NCBI GenBank assembly: GCA_913056385.1
Contig: CAJXND010000019.1
Span: 1 to 34,006, forward strand
DNA from: an uncultured Ectothiorhodospiraceae bacterium
GTDB lineage: Bacteria; Pseudomonadota; Gammaproteobacteria; Nitrococcales; Nitrococcaceae
Direction: 5' to 3'
Length of the DNA stretch: 34,006 nt
The position numbers and the translations under genes were made by a program. Every line of letters starts with the position of its first letter. The first letter of the stretch is position 1. The notes under the pieces were generated by a model. That model searched no databases, had not been told where the DNA came from, and saw only the letters and a list, made by a program, of their open reading frames with translations. This document shows, in pieces, positions 10,339 through 13,068 of the stretch.

Positions 10339-10344
10339 TTGCTT

Positions 10345-11142
10345 ATGTTTCAGCGTCTTCGCGAAGATGTCAGCTGTGTTTTCGACCGCGATCCGGCGGC
10401 GCGAAACCATTTCGAGGTGCTGACCAGTTATCCCGGTGTCCATGCGCTTATCCTGCATCGCATGAATCACTGGCTGTGGCGCCATGGCCTGCGCTGGCTG
10501 GCCCGGTTCTTCTCGCTGATTGCCCGCTGGTTGACCGGGATCGAGATTCATCCGGGGGCGAAAATCGGGCGGCGGTTTTTCATCGATCACGGCCTCGGCA
10601 TTGTCATCGGCGAGACGGCGGAAGTGGGCGATGACTGCACGCTCTATCAGGGGGTGACCCTTGGCGGTACCTCCTGGGAGGGGGGTAAACGGCATCCGAC
10701 CCTGCGCAACGATGTCGTGGTGGGCGCCGGTGCCAAGGTGCTCGGCCCCATCGAAGTGGGCGAGGGCGCGCGCATCGGCTCCAATGCCGTCGTGGTCAAG
10801 GATGTGCCGGAGCATGCCACGATGGTCGGTATCCCGGCCCGGGTGGCCCGGATCGCCCGCGAGGAGACGCCATGCACCGAAGCCGATCAGCGCCGTGCGG
10901 AAACGGCCCGGCGTATCGGCTTCGAGGCCTATGGTGCGACACGGGACATGCCCGATCCGGTGGCGAATGCCATTAACGCGATTCTCGATCATGTGCATTA
11001 CACCGACGCGCGACTGCAGGAGATGTGCAGTGCCCTCCGGGCGTTGGGCGCGGAGGTCAATGACAGCCGGATCCCCGATATCGAGGATTGTGGCATGCAG
11101 GATGACAGCGGACGGGATCAGGCCTCGGGCTCCGAACGCTGA
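10345..11142 (+). CDS. cysE: Serine O-acetyltransferase CysE
   Basis: 265 residues. Makes O-acetylserine from serine and acetyl-CoA, the committed step to cysteine. A helical N-terminal domain is followed by a left-handed beta-helix of hexapeptide repeats containing the catalytic block [16 protein letters not shown] (His82) and GKRHP (His117), and ending in [17 protein letters not shown]. The helical N-terminus is shorter than in E. coli CysE and the C-terminal tail longer (about 90 residues, with [10 protein letters not shown]), as in the CysE forms found next to isc genes. It precedes the desulfurase by 12 bases, so cysteine supply and use are linked. ATG 10345 lacks a well-spaced ribosome site; a TTG at 10339 is possible. 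Confidence 0.95.
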
Positions 11143-11154
11143 ACGGGGATGCTC

Positions 11155-12366
11155 ATGACTCCCTACCTCGACTACGCGGCAACGACCCCCGTTGACCCCC
11201 GGGTCTCCCGGTTCATGGCCCGGTTCGAGGGGCCGGACGGGTTTTTCGCCAACCCCGGTAGCGACCATCCCGCCGGCCATGCCGCGGCCGCGGCCGTTGA
11301 TGACGCCGCCCAGCAGGTGCTTGGCCTGCTGGACGACCCGGGTTTTCGGGTGATCTGGACCAGCGGTGCCACCGAGGCCGACAACCTGGCGATCGCCGGC
11401 CTTGCACGGGCGCTCGATCGGCGGGATAGCCCGCGGCGCCGATTACTGGTGGTAGCGACCGAGCACTCGGCGGTCCTGGCAGCCGCCCGGGTGGCAGGCG
11501 CCGCGGGTATGCGGGTGGAGACGCTGCCGGTATCCGGCGATGGCCTTCTCGAGGTGAATACGCTGGAGCGCGCGCTTGATGACGAGGTTGCGCTGGTCTC
11601 GATTGCCCCGGTGAACAACGAGACCGGCGTTATCCAGAATATCGAGCCCCTGGCCGCCGCGATTCATGCCGTGGGTGCACGGCTTCACCTGGACGCGGCC
11701 CAGGCCGTCGGTCATCTGCCCGACAATGGGCTCTATCGTCATGCCGATATGGTTTCGCTGTCCGCCCACAAATTCTGTGGGCCGAAGGGCATCGGGGCGC
11801 TCTGCTACCGGCCGGCCCTGCGTCTGGAGCCGCTGTTGCAGGGTGGTGGCCAGCAGCGGGGCATGCGGCCGGGGACGCTGCCGGTGCCGTTGATCGCGGG
11901 CATGGGTGAGGCCCTGCAGATACGGAATGACCATGATGAGCGGGTGCGTCAGCGTGGTCTCCAGCAGCGGCTTCGGCAGCACCTGGAGGCGCTCGGTGGT
12001 GTCGTGATCAATGGCCGCGGTGACGGCTCGGCGCATGTCCTCAACGCATCATTCGCGGGTGTCCAGGGCGCGGCCCTGCGCGCTGCGCTGGCCGATCTGT
12101 CGGTGGGTTTCGGGTCGGCCTGCAATAGCCGGGGCGGGCCCTCCCATGTCCTCCGGGCGATGGGGCGGCCGGATGCGCTGGCCCATGCCTCGGTGCGTTT
12201 CAGCCTCGGACGCTTCACCACCGAGCGCGATATTGACAGTGTGGCGGAGCGAGTGGCCGAGCGGGTCCGACGCCTGCGGGCCATATCACCCGTGTGGCGT
12301 GAACTTCAGGCGGGCGAGTCCATCGAAAATGTCTACGGCGTCACAACCCCGCTGAGAATGGCTTGA
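11155..12366 (+). CDS. iscS: Cysteine desulfurase, IscS type
   Basis: 403 residues, PLP enzyme that takes sulfur from cysteine as an enzyme persulfide for Fe-S clusters and tRNA thiolation. It starts with YLDYAATTP and has His104 (ATEHSAV), Asp180 (HLDAAQAVG), PLP lysine 206 (SLSAHKFCGPKG) and active-site Cys323 in GSACNSRGG. His104 and Lys206 have the same numbers as in E. coli IscS, and RFSLGRFTTE plus SPVWREL near the end mark the IscS group. The Cys loop is one residue shorter than in E. coli and lacks its ASLEP sequence. ATG 11155 is preferred to 11149 because GGGGA then has normal spacing. The next gene starts 4 bases on. Confidence 0.9.
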   Translation: MTPYLDYAATTPVDPRVSRFMARFEGPDGFFANPGSDHPAGHAAAAAVDDAAQQVLGLLDDPGFRVIWTSGATEADNLAIAGLARALDRRDSPRRRLLVVATEHSAVLAAARVAGAAGMRVETLPVSGDGLLEVNTLERALDDEVALVSIAPVNNETGVIQNIEPLAAAIHAVGARLHLDAAQAVGHLPDNGLYRHADMVSLSAHKFCGPKGIGALCYRPALRLEPLLQGGGQQRGMRPGTLPVPLIAGMGEALQIRNDHDERVRQRGLQQRLRQHLEALGGVVINGRGDGSAHVLNASFAGVQGAALRAALADLSVGFGSACNSRGGPSHVLRAMGRPDALAHASVRFSLGRFTTERDIDSVAERVAERVRRLRAISPVWRELQAGESIENVYGVTTPLRMA

Positions 12367-12370
12367 AACG

Positions 12371-12745
12371 ATGGACATGAAGCTGGAGCCTTGGAATGCG
12401 GAGAGCCTTGGAGCCCCCGGGGCGGCGCAGGGCTGGATCCACGGCGCGGCGGGACGGGTCGCCGACGGCTGTCGTGTTGATTGCTGGCTGTCAGCAGGGC
12501 CGGGCGGTATCCGCGAGGCGCGCTTCGAGGTGTTCGCGGGGCCGGAGGCCATGAGGGCCGCTGCATGGCTGGCGGACTGGCTCGCGGGCCGGTCGGTCAA
12601 GGCCGCCGAGGCGGTCACCGGGCTGTGGCTCGCCGGGCAGGCCGGGATGCCGGACGAGGCTCGAGGCGAAGGACTTTGCATTGAGGATGCACTGCGGTCA
12701 GCGCTGACCGCAGTCGCCGCCGGAGAAGGTGGGAGCGAGATATGA
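12371..12745 (+). CDS. IscU-like scaffold-fold protein lacking the canonical ligand cysteines
   Basis: 124 residues. The stretch IREARFEVFAGPEAMRAA, then WLADWLAGRSVKAAEAVTG and finally CIEDALRSAL aligns with the core of IscU (IIEDARFKTYGCGSAIAS, VTEWVKGKSLDEAQAI, LAEDAIKAAI). Its position between iscS and iscA is exactly that of iscU. By hand alignment the three cluster cysteines of IscU are replaced (PACGD by VADGC, YGCG by FAGP, HC by GE), and the LPPVK motif that binds HscA is lost (MPDEA). Three cysteines remain elsewhere: Cys34, Cys38 and Cys103. It is therefore unlikely to hold a cluster in the IscU way; a structural or regulatory partner of the desulfurase is possible. Its stop overlaps iscA by 4 bases, so it is clearly translated. 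Confidence 0.75.
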   Translation: MDMKLEPWNAESLGAPGAAQGWIHGAAGRVADGCRVDCWLSAGPGGIREARFEVFAGPEAMRAAAWLADWLAGRSVKAAEAVTGLWLAGQAGMPDEARGEGLCIEDALRSALTAVAAGEGGSEI

Positions 12746-13068
12746 CGATACAGCTGACGGTACGGGCCGCCGATCACATCCGCGACGCACTGACGCGCCA
12801 TGGCAGTGGCATGGGGCTGCGTCTGGGTGTTCGGACATCCGGTTGCTCGGGTTTCATGTACACCGTGGACTACGCCGATGCCGTGGGTGACGACGATACC
12901 CTGGTCGAGCAGCACGGTGTCTCGGTGGTGATTGATCGAAAGAGCCTGCCGTTCCTGGAAGGCATGGAAGTGGACTTCGTCAGAGAGGGCCTCAACGAGC
13001 ACTTCAGTTTCCGCAACCCCAACGTGACGGCCGAGTGCGGTTGCGGCGAGAGCTTCTCGGTGCAGTGA
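12742..13068 (+). CDS. iscA: A-type iron-sulfur carrier IscA
   Basis: 108 residues. Carries iron or preformed Fe-S clusters to apoproteins. The three ligands are intact: Cys35 in TSGCSGF, and Cys99 and Cys101 in ECGCGESF, with the same numbering as E. coli IscA. Translation is coupled to the IscU-like gene through ATGA. No hscB, hscA or ferredoxin gene follows, unlike the standard isc operon; instead a 122-base gap leads to ndk. The protein could also be called ErpA-like, but the isc context favours IscA. Confidence 0.92.
   Translation: MTIQLTVRAADHIRDALTRHGSGMGLRLGVRTSGCSGFMYTVDYADAVGDDDTLVEQHGVSVVIDRKSLPFLEGMEVDFVREGLNEHFSFRNPNVTAECGCGESFSVQ

Follow-up and report, generated by a model that had tools for sequence, protein, structure and literature searches.

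Between the genes for a cysteine desulfurase and an A-type carrier in an uncultured Ectothiorhodospiraceae bacterium of the salt-loving genus Spiribacter lies a gene whose product, judged by its sequence, is an IscU homologue that fails the features by which the IscU scaffold is defined. We refer to this gene as iscU* and to its divergent desulfurase partner as iscS*; the whole stretch of DNA analyzed, 34,006 nucleotides long, is called the window. We lean slightly towards an interpretation in which the scaffold of a reduced ISC operon would have become a cluster-less, probably regulatory subunit of its own desulfurase, IscS*. Cluster ligands are what ordinarily defines an IscU, and a conserved form that lacks them yet is under purifying selection suggests a second role for the scaffold at the desulfurase, one that could be studied without cluster chemistry.

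Sequence and Predicted Fold of IscU*

An earlier note made from the letters of the window had claimed that all three cluster cysteines and the ligand-side His and Asp are replaced in this product, and that LPPVK, the HscA-recognition motif of IscU, has become MPDEA. Alignment to E. coli IscU confirms both, with all five residues of the cluster site changed (Cys37 to Asp32, Asp39 to Cys34, Cys63 to Gly57, His105 to Gly99 and Cys106 to Glu100; Table 1). The other cysteines that had been listed, Cys34, Cys38 and Cys103, are present. The reported alignment to the IscU core also holds, but its description as gap-free is only roughly right, as short gaps exist.

The Pfam model NifU_N matches the window IscU* with 19.2 bits (E 0.0014), below its curated cut-off of 22, and the NCBIfam iscU model TIGR01999 does so with 18.8 bits (E 0.0013), short of the equivalog cut-off of 192.4; up to E 10, NCBIfam gives no match to the SufU model TIGR01994. 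With a profile built from 39 relatives (A1), IscUs from other gammaproteobacteria are reached at about E 1e-25; the loci so matched in which the full ligand set was read include L083, L085 and L087. The AlphaFold model of the product alone has pLDDT 88.4 and pTM 0.82. Foldseek aligned it to E. coli IscU (3lvl_A) with E 8e-8 and TM 0.78, and VIA gave Z 17.2 for human ISCU (8pk8_D) and about Z 11 for SufU. ISCU and IscU structures come first among the PDB matches, and the top ten were all taken out of desulfurase complexes. We conclude that the window IscU* is homologous to IscU beyond chance and that its product is predicted to adopt the IscU fold, as the earlier note had supposed. Profile, fold and synteny rule out a chance similarity or an unrelated protein.

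Table 1. Genes and altered sites at the iscU* locus, with fused genes from other lineages. Positions are those of the window unless a locus is named.
Feature	Position	Strand	Remarks
cysE, serine acetyltransferase	10339..11142	+	directly upstream of iscS*; name presumed from sequence
iscS*, divergent IscS-type cysteine desulfurase	11149..12366	+	4 bases before iscU* start
iscU*, IscU-fold protein (predicted) without cluster ligands	12371..12745	+	ATG start, 124 aa
Asp32 codon, at IscU Cys37 position	12464..12466	+	alignment to E. coli IscU
Cys34 codon, at IscU Asp39 position	12470..12472	+	alignment to E. coli IscU
Gly57 codon, at IscU Cys63 position	12539..12541	+	alignment to E. coli IscU
MPDEA (Met93-Pro-Asp-Glu-Ala97), at LPPVK position	12647..12661	+	alignment to E. 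coli IscU
Gly99-Glu100, at IscU His105-Cys106 position	12665..12670	+	alignment to E. coli IscU
iscA, A-type carrier with its three cysteines	12742..13068	+	start overlaps iscU* end
IscS-IscU* fused ORF, G302 genus	L088:5592-7196		
IscS-IscU* fused ORF, G302 genus	L132:309-1919		
IscS-IscU* fused ORF, G302 genus	L133:4781-6376		
IscS-IscU* fused ORF, G302 genus	L134:2341-4098		
IscS-IscU* fusion, G066	L140:4111-5817		568 aa; other family than G302

Conservation of the Locus across the Order

The order was represented by 54 genomes, of which 42, the window's included, belong to families f1 to f4 and 12 to family f5. Of the 42 genomes in f1-f4, 41 have adjacent iscS*, iscU* and iscA genes. The one left over, G008, has a completeness of 74% and yields only a weak match with stops. 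In 39 of the 41 order loci, on contigs reaching both flanks, these genes are directly bordered by cysE and ndk, and the gap between iscA and ndk is at most 457 bases in these 39. The gene names cysE, ndk, suhB, trmJ, rlmN, pilF, rodZ and hisS are our presumed assignments. In E. coli, suhB and trmJ adjoin isc. Searches of the 41 order loci with E. coli IscR, HscB, HscA, Fdx and IscX gave no match at E 1e-3, and all five were matched in control loci L069 and L090; in a third control, L071, whose contig ends in hscA, IscR, HscB and HscA were matched.

Cys37, Asp39, His105 and Cys106 are kept in none of the 41 order IscU* proteins. Cys63 is lost in 22 of the 41 and kept in 19. Close relatives with the canonical cysteine set, which the earlier note had named as a sign of recent decay, number 0 of 41. 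Gly28, Glu105, Asp106, Ala107 and Ala111 are invariant in 39 of 39 IscU* sequences, and the three cysteines of iscA are kept at all 41 loci. Family f5 has iscU* in none of its 12 genomes. Nine of these lack any IscS match at E 1e-60, and in the two examined of the remaining three, IscS has none of these isc-locus neighbors.

Over four Spiribacter pairs, dN/dS is 0.16-0.31 for iscU*, compared with 0.03-0.11 for iscA, 0.11-0.17 for iscS* and 0.22-0.24 for rodZ; its rate of evolution exceeds those of iscA, cysE and ndk and is close to that of rodZ. Hence iscU* is under purifying selection, weaker than that on iscA. Its presence in 41 of 42 genomes together with these ratios rules out recent decay, in agreement with the earlier reading of the intact frame.

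A different metal or persulfide site formed by Cys34, Cys38 and Cys103 had also been proposed. Cys38 is invariant in all 14 members of group A2 (the window, 12 other Spiribacter and G017 of a neighboring genus), with Cys34 found in 9 and Cys103 in 10 of them, and 0 of the 27 other order-level homologues have a cysteine at any of the three positions. These cysteines are not conserved order-wide, and as a general rule the proposal is unsupported.

Two irregularities were noted in iscS-like genes of the order. In G030 (L052:4756-5972) iscS* is split into two overlapping frames, through a sequencing error or because the gene is broken, and G009 carries an extra IscS-like gene away from the isc locus (L146:4803-6002).

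The Desulfurase and Its Contact Surface

The catalytic residues His104, Asp180, Gln183, Lys206 (the PLP lysine) and Cys328 (the active cysteine) are kept in all 53 IscS* sequences compared (39 from the order, the window's included, and 14 from outside). The window protein scores 342.3 bits against TIGR02006, under the equivalog cut-off of 643.2. By sequence, IscS* would thus be an intact-looking but divergent IscS-type desulfurase. In a tree of 71 IscS rows the 53 pseudo-partnered sequences fall on one side of a branch with SH-aLRT 80, a value obtained by a quick search with long branches present. A cut or split IscS led us to leave loci L047 (G033) and L052 (G030) out of the tree and of the interface counts, and no IscS sequence was available for L129 (G059); G086 has an IscU frame that breaks off ahead of residue 105 and was grouped with the canonical set. 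In two genomes, G054 and G093, iscS is preceded in tandem by another IscS-like gene of shorter length (L071:3395-4513 and L089:3280-4434).

E. coli IscS contacts TusA through Trp45. Order members have lost this residue throughout (39 of 39), as have 13 of the 14 outside sequences, and 18 of 18 canonical IscS keep it. The loss is no proof that the partnership with TusA has ended, since most of these genomes have TusA. A coordinated loss of the contact, involving IscS Trp45 and TusA Phe58, is suggestive only, because G054, whose ISC system is canonical, likewise has TusA-like proteins that lack Phe58.

The IscU-binding C-terminal helix remains recognizable in the order (Ser384 in 38, Pro385 in 36 and Trp387 in 32 of 39 IscS* sequences). 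At acidic position 388, 29 of the 39 now have Arg; Glu309 and Glu347 are gone from all 39, one of which has Asp at 347. We calculated net charge over the contact positions and segments named for E. coli IscS-IscU in an excerpt of PMC2854127. The mean is +2.94 for IscU and -2.11 for IscS in canonical pairs (n = 18), +1.64 and -0.07 in the outside lineages (n = 14), -0.15 and +0.81 in other order members (n = 26) and -2.08 and +1.54 in Spiribacter (n = 13). Whole-protein charge is not inverted (IscS -8.0 to -5.0, IscU -5.4 to -5.9).

In Spiribacter, subset tests of this shift give modest results: 1.9% of four-position subsets of conserved acidic IscS residues shift as far as positions 309, 311, 347 and 388, and 5.0% of three-position subsets of conserved basic IscU residues shift as far as 42, 59 and 103; the four acidic positions were hand-picked inside the segments of PMC2854127 (excerpt) and the rows are related, so that these fractions are indications and not probabilities. 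With the same reading, the values for other order members are 2.0% for IscS* and 26% for IscU*, making IscS* alone unusual, and those for the 14 outside sequences are 12% and 95%, neither of them unusual. Reversing the charge of Lys103 in E. coli IscU abolishes IscS binding (PMC2854127, excerpt), and the corresponding residue of the window IscU* is Ala, a point against the proposed pairing. The charge swap at these positions in Spiribacter suggests that a private interface between IscS* and IscU* has been retained.

Ligand-Poor IscUs and Gene Fusions outside the Order

Other orders of the same class provided 14 further ligand-poor IscUs; in a scan of 369 genomes of the class the best loci alone were read, so that this number is no measure of frequency. 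The 14 form a series. In three of them (G282, G398 and G424) the loss is limited to Cys37 and Asp39. His105 survives in G425 together with Cys63, in G057 with Cys106 and in G077 with Asp39; in seven others Cys63 is the sole site residue left, and G066 has none. Cys63 is thereby kept in 11 of the 14, and Cys37 is lost in all 55 ligand-poor homologues from within and outside the order.

In-frame fusions of IscS with a C-terminal IscU* domain are found in all four genomes searched of the G302 genus (534 aa in G302, 536 in G420, 531 in G421 and 533 in G422), with both Aminotran_5 and NifU_N over their cut-offs. A separate IscU with the full ligand set is encoded as well in G302, G420 and G421, and in G302 it sits in an isc operon with hscBA and fdx. 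The fusion in G066 scores 20.0 bits for NifU_N (cut-off 22) and has no ligand cysteine left; cysE precedes it, iscA and ndk follow, and no other of 36 genomes searched around G066 contains it. At the loci of the four G302-genus fusions and of G057 no iscA was found, the contig of G420 stopping about 300 bases past the fusion. A predicted model of the fused protein has pLDDT 88.7 and pTM 0.85, with the elements of the IscU domain present. The occurrence of fusions in two families is evidence for physical association of the IscS and IscU* parts.

The Remaining Fe-S Pathway

The earlier note reasoned that an Fe-S system must exist elsewhere in the genome. Indeed, the window genome encodes sufS-sufU and a gene that we take to be sufT-like on contig C15 and SufB on contig C17, and its SufU, with cysteines, scores 159.8 bits against TIGR01994, over the family cut-off. 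A second canonical IscU, the other candidate, was not found there; the sole other NifU_N match is this SufU. SufB is over its cut-off in 51 of the 54 order genomes and in 41 of the 42 from f1-f4, and the three misses (G033, G050 and G052) are all less than 85% complete. In G057, the sole outside lineage searched genome-wide for SUF and HscA, SufB is present and HscA is below its cut-off.

HscA, judged by a strict cut-off of 708.55 bits, is found in 0 of the 54 order genomes. The best match in the window genome has 640.9 bits and is the sole one at E 1e-50, presumably DnaK. A single Hsp70-family match at this level, again presumably DnaK, occurs in 39 of the 42 f1-f4 genomes; in G021, G022 and G029 it is joined by another, partial match. 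No frataxin/CyaY turned up in 60 genomes, in a search whose control was positive in E. coli alone. Of 59 relatives, 58 have MnmA and 54 have TusA, and the window genome has both; possible sulfur customers therefore exist.

Discussion

We propose that iscU* descends from an IscU scaffold and that its ISC operon would have lost cluster assembly while SUF does that work. Given the absence of ligands, IscU* is not expected to hold clusters and would no longer build them. It would stay bound to IscS* through an interface with exchanged charges, presumably in the window organism as well. There it may occupy the IscU site, where it would most likely position or restrain the mobile Cys328 loop and the choice of sulfur acceptor, the purpose served probably being tRNA thiolation or other sulfur trafficking. 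Retention of the operon, joint absence from most of f5, fusions to IscS in two lineages and the reciprocal change of charge at the contact surface argue for a lasting partnership with IscS*, and lend indirect support to the pseudo-scaffold bound to the desulfurase that the earlier note had imagined. E. coli IscU raises IscS activity only slightly and competes with TusA (PMC11302665, excerpt), which makes an effect of IscU* on acceptor choice plausible. A more far-reaching version is that the pair constitutes a new desulfurase holoenzyme, with a permanent pseudo-scaffold subunit and a private, charge-reversed interface that insulates IscS from canonical partners, and with the two parts fused in some lineages; we put this a little short of an even chance.

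IscU* could alternatively be a sulfur carrier, accepting the persulfide of IscS* on a remaining cysteine (at the Cys63 position in many homologues, Cys38 in Spiribacter) and passing it on as SufU or TusA would. Cys63 is indeed the ligand most often kept, at the frequencies given above for the order and for the outside lineages, and Cys38 is invariant throughout A2. However, the Cys38 position (E. coli Leu43) alternates with the IscS-facing positions 38, 40 and 42 and probably points away from IscS, and the window genome already has a SufU with its cysteines. Moreover, since all three ligand cysteines are missing in 24 of the 55 ligand-poor homologues, the G066 fusion included, a conserved relay cysteine is unlikely as a general mechanism, although one may operate in lineages that keep Cys63 or, through Cys38, in Spiribacter. 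Taken as a whole, the carrier reading appears unlikely to us.

It is improbable, in our estimation, that IscU* serves as a docking adaptor bringing IscA or another client to the IscS* complex. Such a role would fit the iscA gene with all three cysteines that follows iscU* in 41 of 41 order loci, and the overlap of the two genes in the window, but not the apparent lack of iscA at the G302-genus and G057 loci; furthermore, SUF can load IscA. Similarly improbable is a relic in slow decay, retained through the translational coupling of iscS* with iscA. The varying degree of ligand loss among lineages and the faster evolution of iscU* relative to iscA, cysE and ndk would fit a relic, yet the frame is open in 41 of 42 genomes, dN/dS has the values given above, five residues are invariant, the window member is predicted to keep the IscU fold (pLDDT 88), and ligand-poor IscU domains have been kept in gene fusions in two lineages.

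In the regulatory-subunit interpretation that we prefer, IscU* shares with the IscU scaffold (TIGR01999; E. coli IscU, human ISCU2) its fold, its family and its position between iscS and iscA. Unlike that scaffold, it has no cluster-site residues and no LPPVK, and the charges that face IscS are inverted; its locus, unlike scaffold loci, has no hscBA, fdx, iscX or iscR. SufU (TIGR01994) likewise belongs to the NifU_N superfamily and has a desulfurase partner, but it keeps its cysteines, pairs with SufS and is a separate gene in the window genome, and the IscU* model is nearer to IscU (Z about 17) than to SufU (about 11). Frataxin/CyaY and ISD11, whose folds are unrelated, bind and tune IscS or NFS1 and are not its scaffold, whereas here the regulator would be the former scaffold itself. 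M. tuberculosis combines a complete SUF system with an ISC operon cut to iscS alone (PMC10848736, excerpt). That case shares with ours the reduced operon, the retained desulfurase and SUF, but here a modified IscU and IscA remain as well. The iscU* locus offers a view of ISC operon remodelling in a setting where cluster assembly falls to SUF. Among the matches listed, the titles and abstracts of open-licence PMC articles hold no description of a ligand-less IscU or of an IscS-IscU fusion. IscU* may serve as a natural separation-of-function IscU, and the fused form as a natural IscS-IscU for structural work.

Two of the loci outside the order merit separate mention. In G425 (L138:6868-7350), iscR is kept beside iscS, and the IscU is without Cys37, Asp39 and Cys106. 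The IscU of G282 (L091:5978-6361) may represent an early stage of ligand loss.
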